A stretch of DNA of 64,000 nt, from assembly GCA_012522805.1 (NCBI GenBank), contig JAAYJS010000034.1, forward strand, positions 1-64,000. Direction: 5' to 3'. Within the stretch, counting starts at the first letter, position 1; each line of letters opens with the position of its first letter. Of this stretch, positions 9,810-30,212 are shown one piece after another. Under the pieces are notes generated by a model, which was not told the DNA's origin, made no database searches, and was given only the letters and a program-made list of their open reading frames with translations. A program made the translations under genes and the position numbers. Origin of the DNA: Eubacteriaceae bacterium (GTDB taxonomy: Bacteria > Bacillota > Clostridia > Eubacteriales > Eubacteriaceae).

Positions 9810-11317
9810 TATTTGGACCCCTCATTGATGCGAACATCCCATATGGTAACGTCACTGTCTAAAAGCGTGTATTTGTCAAAAAATTCTTTCATGATGGCAT
9901 CAACATCTACATCCTTAAATTCCTCCGGATAAAAGATTTGAGCCATTCTTAAAGCTGCTTGAAATCCGTATAGGGATCTATTGGTGGTATGTGAAAATTC
10001 ATAAACGTTGTTGTTTTTGACCGCTTTTAAGTCTTTCCAACCCGTCCTGTTGACAATATCAAATTTAGCCACACCGGGTTCAGAGCCTTTGTGATTGTCC
10101 ATCCAACCAAGCCCGGAGCCGGTTAAGATAATAAAATCAGGGTCGGATTCAATAATATATTCCGGATCGATGGTGCTGCCGCCACCTTTGCTGGCCGCTG
10201 TATCTGCTAATAAGGGGTCGGCAATGTTATCACCACCCGCAATGGCAATAGATGTTCCCCAACCTGAGGCACTGGGACTGGTGACGCCGTAGATTTCCGA
10301 ATAACCGGATTTTTCATAATAAACCGTCGGCTTATCTGTGCGTTCTGTGAGATTTTTAGATTCTAAAAGTGCGTATTGATCGTCAATAAAAGTTGCCACT
10401 TCCTTTGCCTTGTCTTCTTGTTCAAAAATTTGGCCGAGCAACTTTAAAGTATCTTGTACCGATGTTGTCTGATCCTTACCCGGTATGTCTATGAGTACAA
10501 TGGGAATCCCAGCTTCTGCCAATTGGCTTTCAACTTCCATGACGTATCTGTGTGCGCCCATGGCGGAGTTTACGATAATAACATCCGGCTCTACAGCTAA
10601 AATCATCTCCAAATCGAAGGGAGCGTTGTGATCTGATATCTGTCCAACGTGGTTCATATATTCACCGACGATTGGTGTGTAGAGTTCAGCATAGCCTTGA
10701 AGACCATTACCGCCGTCTTGTCCGGAACCAACCAACTTGCTAAAGGCATCCTCTCCGATTAAGGGGACGATGTAGTCTATGACATCCATGGTGCTCATAG
10801 CGTAGGTTGAAACGGGCAAACCGATTTCTACCTCTCTGCCTCTAGCGTCCGTTACTGTAACAGAACCGGTTTTTGGCTCTTTTTCAGGCAGCGCATCCTT
10901 ATCGAACTCATAGGTTATCTTGTCACTTCTCTTCTCCGTAAAATCGTATTTGGCCGGATCCAAACCGGCTTTGGTCAGAGCATCTGCTACAGCACCGACG
11001 ATCCCGTCACCAGTTAAGGTGGCGCCACTGACAGCATCCACGCTTAATGATTGCGTATCCAAGATCGCTTTCGGTATTTTTTCGATCGGCACTTCCGCGA
11101 TACCCTTTGTTTCATTGTGGTTTTCATCCACTTTGATTTCAGTTATTTTCCCATCATCGTCAAGGGTTACCTCAACTCGGATATCTCCATGATAGCCTTC
11201 AGCTGTTCCTTCGTAAGTGCCGGCATAATCACCTTTGCTACCATCACCTTGGGAACAACCAGCTATAACACCAATTGTAAGTGAAAGGCAAAGGATCATT
11301 GCGAATATTTTTCTCAT
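9809..11317 (-). CDS. Corrinoid-type ABC binding lipoprotein fused to an N-terminal FMN-binding domain
   Basis: This 502-aa protein has a signal peptide and lipobox VIAGC (Cys21). Residues about 30-130 form an FMN_bind domain like that of NqrC/RnfG; DAVSGATLT at 94-102 fits the ApbE flavinylation consensus DxxSGATxT, with Thr100 as the probable FMN acceptor. A short linker follows. Residues about 150-502 are a BtuF/FepB-type periplasmic-binding domain starting VTVTDARGREVEIGLP. Typical BtuF-like proteins are about 300-380 aa, so the extra domain explains the length. The gene heads the operon behind the riboswitch. The flavin may pass electrons to the bound corrinoid; that is inference. An alternative substrate is ferric chelate. 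No apbE is in the window. Confidence 0.85.
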   Translation of the reverse strand: MRKIFAMILCLSLTIGVIAGCSQGDGSKGDYAGTYEGTAEGYHGDIRVEVTLDDDGKITEIKVDENHNETKGIAEVPIEKIPKAILDTQSLSVDAVSGATLTGDGIVGAVADALTKAGLDPAKYDFTEKRSDKITYEFDKDALPEKEPKTGSVTVTDARGREVEIGLPVSTYAMSTMDVIDYIVPLIGEDAFSKLVGSGQDGGNGLQGYAELYTPIVGEYMNHVGQISDHNAPFDLEMILAVEPDVIIVNSAMGAHRYVMEVESQLAEAGIPIVLIDIPGKDQTTSVQDTLKLLGQIFEQEDKAKEVATFIDDQYALLESKNLTERTDKPTVYYEKSGYSEIYGVTSPSASGWGTSIAIAGGDNIADPLLADTAASKGGGSTIDPEYIIESDPDFIILTGSGLGWMDNHKGSEPGVAKFDIVNRTGWKDLKAVKNNNVYEFSHTTNRSLYGFQAALRMAQIFYPEEFKDVDVDAIMKEFFDKYTLLDSDVTIWDVRINEGSK

Positions 11318-12804: not shown

Positions 12805-14181
12805 TTATGCAGCAACACCTGCTAAACTTAAAATTGTGGTGACGATCCAACCGGATGCGTAATAAGCCATAAATTGAACACCGGTGTGTATATCAAACAA
12901 ATTGTGTAGGATACCGCCGAATAATCCAATACACATCGCTACGATGATACCGATAATACCTGCTTCATAGTAAGCCAACATAAAGATGAGACCTAAAAAT
13001 GTTCCGATCAGCGCTTCATGGCTGATGTATTTAAACATCATTTCCGTCCAAGACCTTGCTTTTCTTATGGCTAAAGGATAAGCGAAAAGCGAACCACCAA
13101 TAATGGCGATCAACCCAAAAACAATATAATCCGACACGCCTAAAAAACTGGATAAATTATGAATAGGTTCTATGGTAAACCTTGGGGGTGCGTTGAACAA
13201 TGGTGCTGCCGGTCCTAAAGCAACAGGACTAATAGGGATACCGAAAGCCAATAGAGAAATAATAAACCCGCCTATATAAGTTGCATTACTACAAGCATCT
13301 TGTACGGCTACCGTAGACGAAATTTTATCATAAAGTTCCTTTCTTCGTCCCGATACTAATTCTCCCAATAATACTGTGGAGCCAACCGGAGAGAATGTGA
13401 ACATTGCGGTACCCAATACAGAGCTAATGGCAACATCCCGTCTTTGCTTCTTTGTTAATTGTTTGAGAGGGTTGGGATAATAGGAATATTTCTGTTTTGC
13501 TTCTGGTGCCAACCAAATTTCTGTTGGACCTTGCTTCCTTTGCCTTTCCCTCATATTGGGTACCAAAACGTTAAATAATTCAGAAATCATAGGGCCAATG
13601 GTAATGCCCATAAAAATGGAAATAAATAAGGTTTTGCCTACGGATTCAAGCGCTAGCCTCTGAAATCCTTGAATTAAAAAGGAATACGGCACGAGTGATA
13701 CAATAGCTGCCCATTTTGCACTGGACATATAAGCGATTAAAATCGCACCTATTGTAAAAATTAAACCGATGTAAGGGGAAATTTTATTTCCGATGGGTGC
13801 CAATAAAAAGGCAAATACAACCGCTAAGGGCAGTGAAATAAAAGAGCCTAACAAAGAGCCGACTGCCATTTTTCTCATAGCAACATGGGGAATTCCCAAT
13901 CTTTTAGCTAGGGAACTGTACCGAACCATTGGAACAGCCATGGTGCTTCCCGGTAAGGCAGCCATAGCGGTAGGTACCGTATGAGAAGTTTGCATCGCAA
14001 CAATAATTCCAATAAACCAAGCGTACAAAACCACGGGTTCCAAACCCATTAAAACTAAAACTAAGGTTAAGGGTGCCATCGTTGCTGTTTCATCTGTCCC
14101 AGGTATCACGCCGATAATAGAAAATATAACACCTCCAATAAAGGAAGCTAGAAAAGCTTGTATCAATAATAAGATACTCAT
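12805..14181 (-). CDS. TctA-family transporter large membrane subunit
   Basis: This 458-aa protein has about 11-12 hydrophobic segments and resembles TctA of tripartite tricarboxylate transporters (motifs GVIPGTDETATMAPLTL near 25 and LGIPISPVALGPAAPLF near 310). It is about 40 residues shorter than many TctA proteins. Its ATG overlaps the tctB-like stop as ATGA. No TctC binding protein is encoded in the operon. Given HMG-CoA reductase and AtuA upstream, the substrate could be mevalonate, 3-hydroxy-3-methylglutarate or a similar branched acid; this is inferred from context. Confidence 0.78.
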   Translation of the reverse strand: MSILLLIQAFLASFIGGVIFSIIGVIPGTDETATMAPLTLVLVLMGLEPVVLYAWFIGIIVAMQTSHTVPTAMAALPGSTMAVPMVRYSSLAKRLGIPHVAMRKMAVGSLLGSFISLPLAVVFAFLLAPIGNKISPYIGLIFTIGAILIAYMSSAKWAAIVSLVPYSFLIQGFQRLALESVGKTLFISIFMGITIGPMISELFNVLVPNMRERQRKQGPTEIWLAPEAKQKYSYYPNPLKQLTKKQRRDVAISSVLGTAMFTFSPVGSTVLLGELVSGRRKELYDKISSTVAVQDACSNATYIGGFIISLLAFGIPISPVALGPAAPLFNAPPRFTIEPIHNLSSFLGVSDYIVFGLIAIIGGSLFAYPLAIRKARSWTEMMFKYISHEALIGTFLGLIFMLAYYEAGIIGIIVAMCIGLFGGILHNLFDIHTGVQFMAYYASGWIVTTILSLAGVAA

Positions 14182-14642
14182 ACTCGTTCTCCTGTTTTTT
14201 CTCTGTATTCTTTTTTATAATTCGGTGAACTTTCCGGAATTAAAGCCAACAAACCATAGAGTTCTAAATCCTCAAGTTCTTGAATAATATCCGAATCTGC
14301 AGTACTGAGAGCTTGTATTTCTTCTTCTACAGATATGCCGGCAGCATGAAGTACTGCTTCTATATCTTCAAATTCAAATTGTTCTTCCACAACTCTCTTA
14401 GGCTTGAATAATCTCGCTGAAATAAAACCAGCCAATAAACAACCTGCAACCCCTACCAAGAGGGCATAACCGTTGGCTAAACTCGTCTCGATCGTTTCCA
14501 TGCCTAGGAAAATTCTTTGTCCTATTAAAAACATAGTCATGGTCAAGACGACACCAATGACACAGGAGATCACCAACTCTCTTAAATCGACCCGATCTCC
14601 CCACACTTCAGTGAATACTTTTTCTTTAAAATCTTCAGACAT
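14178..14642 (-). CDS. TctB-like small transporter subunit
   Basis: This 154-aa protein has two to three clear membrane helices (about 24-45 and 58-80), preceded by a charged N-terminus. An acidic cytoplasmic tail follows (VVEEQFEFEDIEAVLHAAGISVEEE). Size, topology and position before a tctA homologue suggest the small subunit of a Tct-type transporter. It is quite divergent, since TctB proteins usually have four helices, so it may be a different accessory subunit. It overlaps tctA by 4 nt. Confidence 0.55.
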   Translation of the reverse strand: MSEDFKEKVFTEVWGDRVDLRELVISCVIGVVLTMTMFLIGQRIFLGMETIETSLANGYALLVGVAGCLLAGFISARLFKPKRVVEEQFEFEDIEAVLHAAGISVEEEIQALSTADSDIIQELEDLELYGLLALIPESSPNYKKEYREKTGERV

Positions 14643-14659
14643 TCGTTTTTACCTACCTT

Positions 14660-15910
14660 TTATAATAAAGTTTTGGCATATTCCACATTGATTTTTTTAT
14701 CGGCAATCATTTTTTGAACCACAACTTCTATTTGGTCTCCCACAGCGCCGGCTTCGATGGCGACATTTTTTGCATGTAGGGACATATGGCCTCTTTGAAC
14801 GCCCTCTGTGGCCAAGACACGTACGGCGGCTAAGTTTTGCGCCAGACCCAGACACGCGATGACTTCTGCTAACTCTGTAGCAGATTTGACACCCAAAATA
14901 GCCACAGACGCACGGGCTGCTGCGTGTACTTTTGTTGCGCCGCCGACCAAGCCTAGGGCTAGAGGCAGCTCGATGGTGCCGACCAAATCGCCATTAGCAT
15001 CCTTCTCCCAAGTGGTGAGAGGGCTATACTGACCACTAATAGCTGCATAGGCATGAGCGCCGGACTCGATGGCTCTGGTATCATTACCCGTAGCCATGAC
15101 TCCAGCCGTAATACCGTTCATAATACCTTTGTTGTGGGTAGTTGCGCGGAAGGGATCCGCTTTGGCGAAGGCATAAGCTGTGATAATTTTATCCACGACT
15201 TCTTCTCCACCCAGTTCTTCTTTTTTAACTTTAGTCGTCGCTCGCACCAATCTTTCCACTGCCAAGTTTGACAAAATCCTTAAATAAACAACACCACCGG
15301 TAATGCTCTCGATCAAAGGAGCTACCGCTTCCGCCATGGTGTTGACGGCATTGGCACCCATAGCGTCCAAGGTGTTGACCTTTAGATGAATAACCACCAT
15401 AGTGTCGATAATATCGGATTCAATAATGCGTACATCAATATCCACAGCACCTCCGCCCAATTGAACAAGCACAGGGTCCTGTTCGTTACAGAAGTTTAGG
15501 ATCTTTTCTTTATGTTTGTAGATAGCCATTCTGGTGTTTTCAGGATCTTTGACATCTGTAATTTGAATTTGAGCGATCATGATAGAACCGGTGTTCATGG
15601 CATAGAATCCACCGGAAGATCGGGTGAGTCTGGCGCCGTTACTGGCCGCAGCGATGACAGAAGGTTCCTCCGTTACCATGGGGATTAAATATTCTTTGTC
15701 GTTGACGATAAAGTTTAAAGCGACCCCCAAGGGCAAGGTAAAACGTCCTATGACATTTTCGACCATATTGTCCGCTCCATCTAAGGATAGAGAATTTGGA
15801 TCCTGAATAGAGGCGATGTGTTCTTCCGATAATTCTGTGAATTCAACAACTTCCTTTAACCGTTCTTCTGTGGATAATTTATAAAATCCCGAATATTTGC
15901 TCGATTTCAT
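14660..15910 (-). CDS. mvaA: Class II (degradative-type) hydroxymethylglutaryl-CoA reductase
   Basis: This 416-aa enzyme interconverts mevalonate and HMG-CoA. Active-site elements are visible: the Glu of TEEPSVIAAAS (81/82), THNKGIMNG with Lys261, GNDTRAIE with Asp277 and a His in GHMSLHAKNVA (375/379). Length and motifs fit the bacterial class II enzyme, which in Pseudomonas mevalonii works with NAD in mevalonate breakdown. The start overlaps the upstream gene as ATGA. The operon also encodes a transporter and two AtuA-type proteins and is read from a sigma-54 promoter, which favours a catabolic direction. No mevalonate kinase or HMG-CoA synthase is nearby to suggest isoprenoid synthesis. 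Confidence 0.93.
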   Translation of the reverse strand: MKSSKYSGFYKLSTEERLKEVVEFTELSEEHIASIQDPNSLSLDGADNMVENVIGRFTLPLGVALNFIVNDKEYLIPMVTEEPSVIAAASNGARLTRSSGGFYAMNTGSIMIAQIQITDVKDPENTRMAIYKHKEKILNFCNEQDPVLVQLGGGAVDIDVRIIESDIIDTMVVIHLKVNTLDAMGANAVNTMAEAVAPLIESITGGVVYLRILSNLAVERLVRATTKVKKEELGGEEVVDKIITAYAFAKADPFRATTHNKGIMNGITAGVMATGNDTRAIESGAHAYAAISGQYSPLTTWEKDANGDLVGTIELPLALGLVGGATKVHAAARASVAILGVKSATELAEVIACLGLAQNLAAVRVLATEGVQRGHMSLHAKNVAIEAGAVGDQIEVVVQKMIADKKINVEYAKTLL

Positions 15911-16257
15911 TTTCCCAATTCCTTTCTATAATTATCGTAATCCTCTACAGGTATTTCCATCCTCATCAGAGCGGAAGACATAGATTTACCTAGGGAGTCC
16001 AAACGCAGTGAAAAGGTTGCGCCGCCACCCAAGGCTTCCTTTAAAACAAAATTGAGTCCCTGCAAAGAGTCTACTTCGTATCGCAATACGTCACCCTTTA
16101 CCATGCTTTTAAAATGGTCTTTGACACGCGTCGGAGTTAAATAGTCTTTCAAAAACGCGTAATCCTCTTTTTTTCGGGGATACACACAGATATTGCTGAT
16201 ATTGCCTTTGTCTCCGGATCGACCATGGGCGATGTCCTTTAAATACAATTTTTTCAT
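15907..16257 (-). CDS. AtuA C-terminal-like domain protein
   Basis: This 116-aa protein begins KKLYLKDIAHGRSGDKGNISNICVYP, the hallmark of the ferredoxin-fold domain found at the end of long AtuA (DUF1446) proteins or as a separate subunit. Here it is separate, with ATGA overlaps on both sides (AtuA upstream, HMG-CoA reductase downstream), so it very likely works with AtuA. The molecular function is unknown. Confidence 0.85.
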   Translation of the reverse strand: MKKLYLKDIAHGRSGDKGNISNICVYPRKKEDYAFLKDYLTPTRVKDHFKSMVKGDVLRYEVDSLQGLNFVLKEALGGGATFSLRLDSLGKSMSSALMRMEIPVEDYDNYRKELGK

Positions 16258-17633
16258 GCGTCTACCTCCACAACATGTGCCGATAATTGAACCATATCCC
16301 TAGGGATAAGGGTGGGCCATAGCCCGATAACAGGTTGAATTCTTGCTCTGCCTCCGAAAAAGCTGGATCCCGGAGGTCCATTGAGTTGCAAGGGGCTGAT
16401 CTCGGGAATAAGCTTTTGGGCCTCTTCTTTGGTATCCGTCCGAATCGCAATTCTTAAAAGCACTTCGTTGAGATTTTTAACGTGTTCCGGATCCATATTG
16501 GCCACATCTAAATGCAGTGCATTTAAACCAACGTAATCGATGCGAATATCCTCCACTTTTAAGTTTTTGCGCTTCATCTTTTTCATGATGATTTCCGATG
16601 CGAATTGCGCTTTTTCGTAAGCATCCGGCCAAGCGTAATTTAAATATGTCTCAACTTTATAACCGGCATGGTAACCAATGGACAGTTTAAGCGTATCCGG
16701 TCTTTTTTTACCTTTGACGTTTTTCAATTGGACTTCGTCTTTACCGATTTGTTCCAATTCCGAAGCACTGATGTCGGCAACCACATCGGGAGTAATATAA
16801 TTTGCCGGATCGTGAATTTCATACATCAATTGTTCTTTGCAACTCTCTTCCGATACCAAGCCGCCGCTAGTTGCGGTTTTAGTAATAATCGTTTTGTCTT
16901 CACTCACTCTGGCAATGGGGAAACCCAATCTGTCCAAATCAGGAACATCACGCCAACCGTATTCAAAGTTGCCACCGGATCCTTGTCCCCCGCATTCTAA
17001 GAGGTGACCGACAATAATGCCCCGAGCGATGTTGTCGTAGTCATCGTCCTTCCAGCCAAATTCATACATAAGGGGAGATAGGAATAAGCTGGAGTCCGAT
17101 GCTCTTCCAGAAACAATGACGTCTGCATTTTGCTGAAGGCATTGTAAAAATGGCTCTCGTCCAAAATACACATTGGCGTTTAAAATTTTGTCTTGAATTT
17201 CGACGAGTTTCTTGCCATTATCGGAGTTGATAAACTCATGCCCCTCAGCCATCAATCTTGGCAAGTCTTCCTTTAAGTCATCCCCAAGGACATATCCAAT
17301 TTTATAATTAGCAATACCCTTTTCTTTAACCACTACTTTGAGTTTTTCTACTAAAGCCAATACATTGACACCGCCAGCATTTGCCAGGATGCGAATTCCG
17401 TTTTTGTGACAATCTGACAGAATTCTACTGAAAAGGTCTACAAAATCCCTAGCATACCCCGCTTCGGGATTTCTATTTTTTTGTCTTTGCAAAATGGACA
17501 TCGTCAGTTCTGCCAAATAGTCACAGGCCAAATAGTTTAAATTTCCATTTTGAACCATGTCAATGGCCGCATCAGGACTATCTCCCCAAAAACCTTGACC
17601 GCCACCGATTGAGATTTCTTTTAATGCACTCAA
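16254..17633 (-). CDS. AtuA family (DUF1446) protein, first gene of the sigma-54 operon
   Basis: This 459-aa acyclic terpene utilisation AtuA family protein has the N-terminal glycine-rich motif GGGQGFWGDSPDAA, then LACDYLAELTMSIL and GRASDSSLFLSPL. In pseudomonads AtuA is needed for citronellol breakdown, a route passing through branched glutaconyl/HMG-like CoA esters, but its reaction is not known. The start is TTG at 17633, with AAGGAG 7 nt before it. The gene lies about 35 nt downstream of the predicted start of transcription from the -24/-12 promoter. It is the short form, with the C-terminal domain encoded by the next gene. Confidence 0.87.
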   Translation of the reverse strand: MSALKEISIGGGQGFWGDSPDAAIDMVQNGNLNYLACDYLAELTMSILQRQKNRNPEAGYARDFVDLFSRILSDCHKNGIRILANAGGVNVLALVEKLKVVVKEKGIANYKIGYVLGDDLKEDLPRLMAEGHEFINSDNGKKLVEIQDKILNANVYFGREPFLQCLQQNADVIVSGRASDSSLFLSPLMYEFGWKDDDYDNIARGIIVGHLLECGGQGSGGNFEYGWRDVPDLDRLGFPIARVSEDKTIITKTATSGGLVSEESCKEQLMYEIHDPANYITPDVVADISASELEQIGKDEVQLKNVKGKKRPDTLKLSIGYHAGYKVETYLNYAWPDAYEKAQFASEIIMKKMKRKNLKVEDIRIDYVGLNALHLDVANMDPEHVKNLNEVLLRIAIRTDTKEEAQKLIPEISPLQLNGPPGSSFFGGRARIQPVIGLWPTLIPRDMVQLSAHVVEVDA

Positions 17634-17681
17634 ATTATCACTCCTTTATTAAATGTGAAATCATTTATTTATTAGTTTAAA

Positions 17682-17697
17682 TGCAACTTTCGTGCCA
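17682..17697 (-). promoter_or_regulatory. Sigma-54 (-24/-12) promoter of the atuA-mvaA-tct operon
   Basis: The minus strand reads TGGCAC-GAAAG-TTGCA, matching the TGGCAC-N5-TTGCW consensus at every invariant base and with correct spacing. Transcription should begin near 17670, about 37 nt before the atuA TTG. Its presence just downstream of a gene for a sigma-54 activator makes a chance match unlikely. Confidence 0.93.
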
Positions 17698-17701
17698 AAA
17701 A

Positions 17702-17750
17702 TAAAAAGATGTGGCTTTCGAGCTTTTCTGCCCAAAATTCACATCTTTTA
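17702..17750 (-). terminator. Terminator after the sigma-54 activator gene
   Basis: AAAAAGATGTG and CACATCTTTT form a hairpin with a roughly 26-nt loop. On the minus strand it ends in TTTTTATTTTT. It separates the activator transcript from the -24/-12 promoter, so the operon depends on its own promoter. Confidence 0.75.
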
Positions 17751-17783
17751 AGAAACAGGTTGCCTATGAAGGTGTTTTACGAC

Positions 17784-17827
17784 TGACAAACTTGTCAGCT
17801 ACAAGGCTTCTTTTGACAAGTTTGTCA
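17784..17827. promoter_or_regulatory. Paired upstream activator sites for the sigma-54 activator
   Basis: Two 14-bp dyads, TGACAAACTTGTCA (17784-17797) and TGACAAGTTTGTCA (17814-17827), are exact reverse complements of each other. Their centres are 30 bp apart, about three helical turns. They lie about 90-130 bp upstream of the -24 element, a usual enhancer distance. The second is inside the last codons of the activator gene. A 13/14 match, TGACAAATTTGTCT, also occurs inside that gene at 18914-18927. Confidence 0.8.
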
Positions 17828-19367
17828 AATCAATTCCATGATTTTTAATTTTTCTATACATGGTTCGTTCACTAACTTTTAAAGCCTTTGCCGTCTTCTG
17901 AATGTTAAATTGATAATATTGCAGCGCATCCACTATCGCTTTTCTTTCCTTCAAATACATGATTTCTGCCAAGGAGTGATTACTGCATCTGGCCGTATGT
18001 CTTTGTACTTTTGCAGGGATCCTATCCATGGTGATAATGTCTTCATTGGACAAGATCACCGCGTGCTCCATACAATTTTTGAGTTCTCTGACATTACCTG
18101 GCCAAGTGTAGGACGTCAAATGGTTCAAAACAGAATCGGAAATGGTCAGATTCTTTTTATACATCTCGTTGTAGTATTCCAGAAAATAATGTATGAAAAG
18201 AGAGACATCGTGCCCCCTTTCCCGTAAGGGTGGTACCTCTAGGGAAATAACACTCAATCGATAGTACAAATCCTCTCTAAAATTGCCTTTCTCTATCTCC
18301 TCTTCTAAGATTTTGTTGGTCGCGGCAACGATGCGAACATCAACTTTTATTTTTTCATTGCCGCCGATTCTCTCAATTTCTCCTGTCTCCAAGGCTCTGA
18401 GTAATTTTGCCTGCATGGATAGACTCATATCGGCAATTTCATCTAAAAATAAGGTTCCATGATCCGCCAATTGAAATTTTCCGATCTTACCGTCTTTGCT
18501 CGCACCAGTAAAGGCGCCCGGTTCGTAACCAAACATTTCACTCTCAATAAGATTTTCCGGAATAGCCGCGCAATTTAGACTAATAAATGGTTTTTTTGAA
18601 CGTTCGCTGTTTTGATGAATTAAATTGCAGATCAAATCCTTGCCAGAGCCGTTCTCTCCCAATACCAATACGTTGACGTTGGTTTTTGCTACTGTCAAAG
18701 CCTTGGCTACCACCTTTAAATAGTCCGGTGATTTTCCAATAATATTGAGCTCCTTCATTTTTTTCTTCGCTTCCAATTGCCGATTGTATTCCTCTGCAAT
18801 TTGAGAAACTCTGATCACTTCCTGATTCAAATGATTTATTTTTGTGACGTCATCAAAGATCGAGAAAGCACCCACAAATTTGTTTTCATCGTAGATTGGA
18901 AAAATTCTGACGTTGACAAATTTGTCTAAAGATTTAATGTAGTTGTTTTTTTTTAAGATCGGTTTATGGGTTTTAAGCAACTTAATAATCGTTGCGCCTT
19001 CCTCTACATCCTGCATCATCTTGCCAATAATGCGATGCAGCGGCACGCCCAATATTTTTGTATAACTATTGTTAGCGTAAAAAATTCTACCGGTTTCATC
19101 TATTGCGACGACACCTTCTTCAATTTCATTTAATATTTTATGGCTTATCTTATTTTCTTTAAAGCGACACAAGTATTGAATGAGATTCTTATTCACACAT
19201 CCAATTATTTGACTGTCTTTTTCTACGTAAATGATATCATTAGGAATTCTCTTTATATCGAGGGAATATACCGACAAATCGGCAGAAATAAGGTTCTCTT
19301 TATTTTGATCTATATCTGCATCAGGATATATCTTTGCTTGACTATCCATGATATCCATCAGCCGCAT
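17799..19367 (-). CDS. PAS-domain sigma-54-dependent transcriptional activator
   Basis: This 522-aa protein has an N-terminal region of about 75 residues that I cannot assign, then a PAS domain around 75-175 (EEGVVAIDETGRIFYANNSYTKILG). The sigma-54 interaction AAA+ domain has Walker A GENGSGKD at about 237-244 and the sigma-54 contact loop GAFTGA at about 284-289. The C-terminus is a Fis-type helix-turn-helix (NIQKTAKALKVSERTMYRKIK). The start is taken at MRLMDIM (19367), 5 nt after GGAGG; an ATG four codons earlier lacks a ribosome site. It probably senses a small molecule through the N-terminal region or PAS domain and activates the downstream operon. Confidence 0.92.
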   Translation of the reverse strand: MRLMDIMDSQAKIYPDADIDQNKENLISADLSVYSLDIKRIPNDIIYVEKDSQIIGCVNKNLIQYLCRFKENKISHKILNEIEEGVVAIDETGRIFYANNSYTKILGVPLHRIIGKMMQDVEEGATIIKLLKTHKPILKKNNYIKSLDKFVNVRIFPIYDENKFVGAFSIFDDVTKINHLNQEVIRVSQIAEEYNRQLEAKKKMKELNIIGKSPDYLKVVAKALTVAKTNVNVLVLGENGSGKDLICNLIHQNSERSKKPFISLNCAAIPENLIESEMFGYEPGAFTGASKDGKIGKFQLADHGTLFLDEIADMSLSMQAKLLRALETGEIERIGGNEKIKVDVRIVAATNKILEEEIEKGNFREDLYYRLSVISLEVPPLRERGHDVSLFIHYFLEYYNEMYKKNLTISDSVLNHLTSYTWPGNVRELKNCMEHAVILSNEDIITMDRIPAKVQRHTARCSNHSLAEIMYLKERKAIVDALQYYQFNIQKTAKALKVSERTMYRKIKNHGIDLTNLSKEAL

Positions 19368-19414
19368 AGTGTCCTCCATTAAATTTTATTTTGATATATT
19401 ATGATTGATTATTT

Positions 19415-28771: not shown

Positions 28772-30133
28772 TTAACTTTTTTTTACCCTTCTTTTAGATG
28801 AGGAGAAAAAACCCAATTCTTCTCGGTACTTTGCGACGGTTCTTCGAGCGATGCTGACACCTCTATCTTTTAGAGCACGGGTGATAGCTTGATCGCTCAA
28901 AGGTTTTTCTTTGTTTTCTTCTTTTATTAAATCAGCAATTGCTTTTTTAACGGTATCGACCGAAACCTGACTTTGATCCTTGGCGATTCCTCTTACAAAA
29001 AAGCTCTTGAGAGCGATGCTCCCTCCGGAGGTTTGCAAGTACTTACCGCGTACTGCTCGACTCACGGTGGACTCATGCATATCGATACCTTCAGCAACCT
29101 CCTGCATGGTTAAGGGTACCAAGGTACCGTCTTCAAAGAATTGTTTTTGCACCGTCACCATATAGGTGATCACCTTTCTTAAAGTTTCCCTTCTACTTTC
29201 AATATTTTTAATCAATAGTAAGGCTTTGTTTAATCGCTCCTTAACATAGTCTTTCGTCGCTTCATCGGCTAAAGGATCTCGCAAAATCGAACGATACTGT
29301 GATGATATTCTCAGCCTGGGCGTCGAATTTTCAGAAATGCGCACGACGGGTGTTTCTCCCTCCCATGTCAAAAAACAGTCCGGCACCACATAGTTTACTC
29401 TGTCACCGGAGGCGAAGACACGACCGGGTCTAGGTTCCAATCCCATTAAAAATTGCTTAAAGCGAAAAAGGCAATCCTCCTGCAATTTTAAATCTTCCTG
29501 AATTTTTCCCATACGATTTTCTGCAAGATCTTCCAAGTAGTGATACACCAATTCTTTGAATACCGGCTCGTTATAGGTTGTATCTTTTAATTGGAGCCAC
29601 AAACACTCTTCAATGGTTCTGGCACCTACCCCTGTGGGATCCAATGTCTGCAAAAGCTCTATTGCTTTTTCGGTTTCCGTTTCTCCATATTGTTTGAGAA
29701 TATCCGAATACTGACGCAAATAGCCATCACTGTCTACAGCATCGATCAGACTTTCACCGATTTCCAATATCGTCTCGCTGAGGTCTCCCTCTAACATCCC
29801 CCATTGAAACGTCAAATAAGAATATAAATCCATATCTTCGCGATAGAATTTTTGAAAATCGAAATCATCGTCATCCGCCGGGCGAGAAAAATCATAACCT
29901 TCCTAATACCCTCTGTTATCATACTCTCTGGATACGCTTTCCCAATTAATACTTGTTTCGGGTAAGCGTTCATCGAAGCCGTTGGTAAATTCCAACAAAG
30001 GGTTTTCCAATAATTCTTTGTTGATGGTTTGATTCAGCTCTACCGCCGTCATCTGAAGAATTTCGATACCTTGTCGAAGCTCCGGGGTCAAGGCAAGTTT
30101 TTGAGTTGTTTCGAGTTGTAATCCTATTTTCAT
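28772..30133 (-). pseudogene. rpoN: RNA polymerase sigma-54 factor, interrupted by one in-frame TAG codon
   Basis: Read through, the frame encodes 453 aa, the normal RpoN length. Residues 1-50 are region I (MKIGLQLETTQKLALTPELRQGI...). The core-binding and DNA-binding parts follow, with the RpoN box ARRTVAKYRE near the C-terminus. Codon 77 is TAG (29905-29903), inside the acidic linker (region II): ...YDNRGY-stop-EGYDFSRPADDDDFDF. The 23 codons after the stop, up to the next ATG (29833), stay in frame and match RpoN. There is no frameshift. The start ATG 30133 has GAGGTAACAAA upstream; no ribosome site is seen before 29833. It is either a nonsense mutation, sequencing error, stop readthrough or a split protein. 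I call it pseudogene only as a label. Confidence 0.85.
29903..29905 (-). other. In-frame amber codon 77 of rpoN
   Basis: The minus strand reads GGG TAT TAG GAA GGT TAT, with the same frame open on both sides. A single base change, such as from CAG or TGG, would account for it. TAG is used as an ordinary terminator elsewhere in the window (412-414, 2097-2099), which argues against a general reassignment. Confidence 0.9.
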
Positions 30134-30195: not shown

Positions 30196-30212
30196 TGGCA
30201 TGAATATTGCTT
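30196..30212 (+). promoter_or_regulatory. Possible sigma-54 promoter on the plus strand
   Basis: TGGCAT-GAATA-TTGCTT has the GG and GC invariant pairs with the right spacing. It points right, into the antisense strand of the flavodoxin-like gene, with no plus-strand gene downstream. It may be chance or an antisense transcript start. Confidence 0.35.

Follow-up and report, generated by a model that had tools for sequence, protein, structure and literature searches.

The question raised by this locus is whether a bacterium whose rpoN gene carries an in-frame stop codon still possesses a functional sigma-54. In the 64,000-nucleotide stretch of an Eubacteriaceae genome analysed here (the window), the rpoN frame occupies 454 codons of the minus strand (28772..30133) and, with the stop read through, matches the Sigma-54/RpoN family (TIGR02395) at 387 bits, against an NCBIfam rpoN cut-off of 277. 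Translation of the minus strand bore out a sequence-only reading of the same DNA that had described the frame as open save for one amber codon: the single internal stop is the TAG of codon 77 (29903..29905), from which the frame runs open to a TAA at 28772, and the 23 codons after it are RpoN-like as claimed, encoding linker-like residues up to Met101. The upstream open reading frame (29903..30133, minus strand) has a Shine-Dalgarno sequence (anti-SD -6.9 kcal/mol) and encodes the 76 residues of region I, the activator-interacting domain (AID; PF00309, E 7e-18). The downstream frame taken from ATG101 (28772..29833, minus strand) comprises 353 residues with the core-binding (CBD; PF04963, E 2e-41) and DNA-binding (DBD; PF04552, E 1e-51) domains. 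The gene thus shares with its family the three domains, all intact and in the usual order, and the RpoN box, but differs in that one amber codon in region II breaks what in sigma-54 is a continuous polypeptide.

The read-through protein aligns over its full length to solved sigma-54 chains, and the TAG falls within the weakly conserved region II (region limits from PMC7057263); in the alignment of RpoN from relatives the stop column sits in a variable linker. The earlier description of a break exactly in the linker therefore holds for its position but carries little weight as an argument, because 23 of the 231 possible single-base nonsense changes in rpoN (about 10%) fall in codons 50-100. The location is unremarkable, or at most mildly notable.

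The host genome is a 2.02 Mb draft in 47 contigs, with a completeness of 97.8% and a contamination of 0.25%. A second intact rpoN, which the sequence-only reading had proposed to look for, was not found in a genome-wide search, and the broken gene is the sole copy. A contig scan for RpoN kin gave distant matches only, with a best identity of at most 35%, and no near relative. Faster evolution of RpoN before the break was considered and rejected, as its root-to-tip length does not stand out in the family, in a tree with long branches and low resolution. Since this length is ordinary and the domains are intact, any inactivation of rpoN would have been recent.

Other parts of the sigma-54 system are present in this genome. 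The activator and promoter claimed for the window are indeed present: an intact PAS-AAA+-Fis activator with a GAFTGA motif and the Walker A sequence GENGSGK (17799..19379, minus strand), and an exact -24/-12 promoter, TGGCACGAAAGTTGCA (17682..17697, minus strand), preceding an atuA-like gene (16254-17633). The presumed sigma-54-dependent operon (12805..17633, minus strand) encodes AtuA, an AtuA ferredoxin-like protein, a degradative HMG-CoA reductase, a small protein and a TctA transporter. Consensus-like -24/-12 sites precede this AtuA operon, three mttB genes and one CoA-transferase-like gene. A further -24/-12-like site, TGGCATGAATATTGCT (30196-30211, plus strand), is directed away from rpoN; it separates the start of that gene from a neighbour that looked flavodoxin-like by eye. 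Five genuine sigma-54 activators were found in the host genome. Those on contigs C21, C16 and C47 are open, the C47 copy being cut by the contig end. The activator on C1 (L120 about 1836-1839, near 10002), which adjoins mttB, has one in-frame TAA (..NIQV*LLDFLEN..) in an otherwise open frame, and the activator on C19 (L122 about 1486-1530), beside the CoA-transferase-like gene with the -24/-12 site, is shifted out of frame by one base where seven A follow one another; this homopolymer indel could be an assembly error. The 'PYAFTGA' of the C1 activator was rejected as a sign of decay, being common to intact relatives. Two open copies also depart from the usual motifs: the C16 activator (17586-18074, L121) has GETGTEK instead of the Walker A GxxGxGK, together with a GTFTGA loop, and is possibly impaired, and the C47 copy (53-547, L119/L146) has the loop DSFTGA where four relatives, 71-73% identical, have GSFTGA.

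Loss of sigma-54 appears to be common among the relatives, since 22 of the 61 genomes in the co-occurrence set are without the system. In this set rpoN and strong activator domains (E below 1e-60) were both present in 39 genomes and both absent in 22, genomes without rpoN giving weak AAA+ matches only; this perfect co-occurrence agrees with the near-perfect pattern already published (PMC3162934). In one relative from the same order (G046; C5, L126), rpoN is broken by a single independent frameshift and the activators are kept. Inactive or lost sigma-54 has been described before, as in the Neisseria RpoN that lacks the DNA-contact helices and in genomes that have an activator but no sigma-54 (PMC3162934). 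The present case resembles these in that sigma-54 may be inactive and activators remain, but it differs in having a single point lesion, partly intact activators and promoters that are still consensus-like.

Among the four explanations offered by the sequence-only reading (recent nonsense mutation, sequencing error, stop readthrough and a two-piece sigma factor), the first is the best supported, and it is fairly probable that the sole rpoN was recently inactivated by a nonsense mutation in a lineage with repeated sigma-54 loss, for which sigma-54 would be dispensable. The premature stop is present in the assembly in the single copy of the gene, neither suppression machinery nor a restart site was found in a draft whose gaps may hold a suppressor tRNA, and the system is recurrently absent in relatives. 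Translation of the only sigma-54 would then stop at residue 76, giving a region I peptide that lacks the domains for binding polymerase and DNA, while the remainder would not be efficiently translated. Because of these two effects the sigma-54-dependent operons, namely that for AtuA and HMG-CoA reductase and those for MttB-type methyltransferases elsewhere, would be expected to be silent or nearly so. From the sequence we infer that RpoN function has been lost, that the loss is recent and that it has become fixed in the population. Against inactivation stand the intact domains of rpoN and the retention of several -24/-12 promoters and target genes, as expected from a working sigma-54.

The main rival, which is rather unlikely, is a consensus error or a minority strain allele, in which case rpoN would be intact in most cells and the TAG would have entered the 47-contig assembly. 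The draft state of the assembly, the intact promoters, activator and rpoN domains, the occurrence of other disruptions at A7 and G10 homopolymer runs and the absence of a congeneric genome from the comparison set are all consistent with such an origin; however, the lesions in rpoN and in the C1 activator are in-frame stops in frames that are otherwise open, consistent with substitutions, which occur less often than indels among consensus errors. The sigma-54 system is also disrupted more often than ABC domains, the pseudogene rate of the host genome having been sampled via the ABC and MttB families. Two of the five activators are disrupted, versus about 2-4 in a sample of roughly 72 ABC domains (p 0.02-0.05), or versus about one of the 150 activators listed in relatives (p about 0.002, the denominator of 150 being approximate). 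This excess is suggestive only, as the numbers are small and the comparison was partly chosen after the fact. The G10 run belongs to an ABC ATPase gene on C1 (215222-215666, L179), where the frameshift may reflect slippage, phase variation or assembly error.

A smaller share of the probability falls to leaky function, which is improbable: ordinary near-cognate tRNAs would misread UAG, and enough full-length RpoN would be made for partial function if the linker tolerates any residue. The stop within the variable region II and the intact frame and promoters accord with this explanation, and trace RpoN from basal readthrough is possible, but neither a suppressor tRNA nor a pyrrolysine system was found, and the RNA around the stop is no more structured than shuffled sequence (z about +0.6 and +0.8), for which a structured readthrough signal was rejected. 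Dedicated machinery, as in the earlier suggestion of stop readthrough with its check for a suppressor tRNA or pyrrolysine genes, runs counter to what searches of the genome gave. The 45 tRNAs identified all carry ordinary anticodons and none has CTA, although a suppressor may sit in a gap of the 47-contig draft; in a search that covered PylS and PylC, neither protein was above the cut-off. A pyrrolysine-containing protein would require PylS, PylBCD and tRNA-Pyl in the genome, and PylS is present in three relatives (G004, G007 and G030). The likeness to the UAG-decoding systems of these relatives is that UAG could be sense; in contrast to them, the host genome is without detected PylS or PylC, and none of its nine MttB homologues has an in-frame stop. 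Reassignment of TAG was likewise rejected, because ordinary predicted genes in the window end with it (7 others, of about 45). In relative G007 (C60, L077), an intact rpoN lies ~1.5 kb from pylS, near apparent pylC and pylD genes.

A two-piece sigma-54, with region I (76 residues) and the core (353 residues) made separately and acting together, is very improbable, and a working one whose core is made from ATG101 with no Shine-Dalgarno sequence to help is still harder to credit: domains are intact in both pieces, and sigma-54 structures show non-covalent contacts between regions I and III (PMC7057263), but the first in-frame start past the stop, ATG101, 69 bases downstream of the TAG, has no Shine-Dalgarno sequence (anti-SD 0.1 kcal/mol, versus -6.9 at the true rpoN start), and the product would lack residues 78-100, which belong to region II. 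This earlier proposal gained no positive support from relatives either. Among 226 genomes of the class, 67 of which have any rpoN match, no other full-length match has an internal stop, so that the split is not a recurring arrangement; a partial match in G214 carries a TAA and a second copy in G190 is broken. The SigO-RsoA pair of Bacillus subtilis is likewise a sigma factor formed from two polypeptides, but it belongs to the sigma-70 family and its subunits come from separately translated genes, whereas the second piece of rpoN lacks a start signal.

Under recent inactivation by a nonsense mutation, the TAG would probably represent an early step of the sigma-54 loss that recurs in this order, and possibly the start of decay of the sigma-54 regulon. 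Should the allele prove real and fixed, it would provide a snapshot of the loss of a sigma-54 regulon soon after the break, with promoters and target operons still readable; failing that, it would mark an ordinary pseudogene or a consensus artefact. Such a snapshot would make it possible to test which decays earlier, the sigma factor or its activators.
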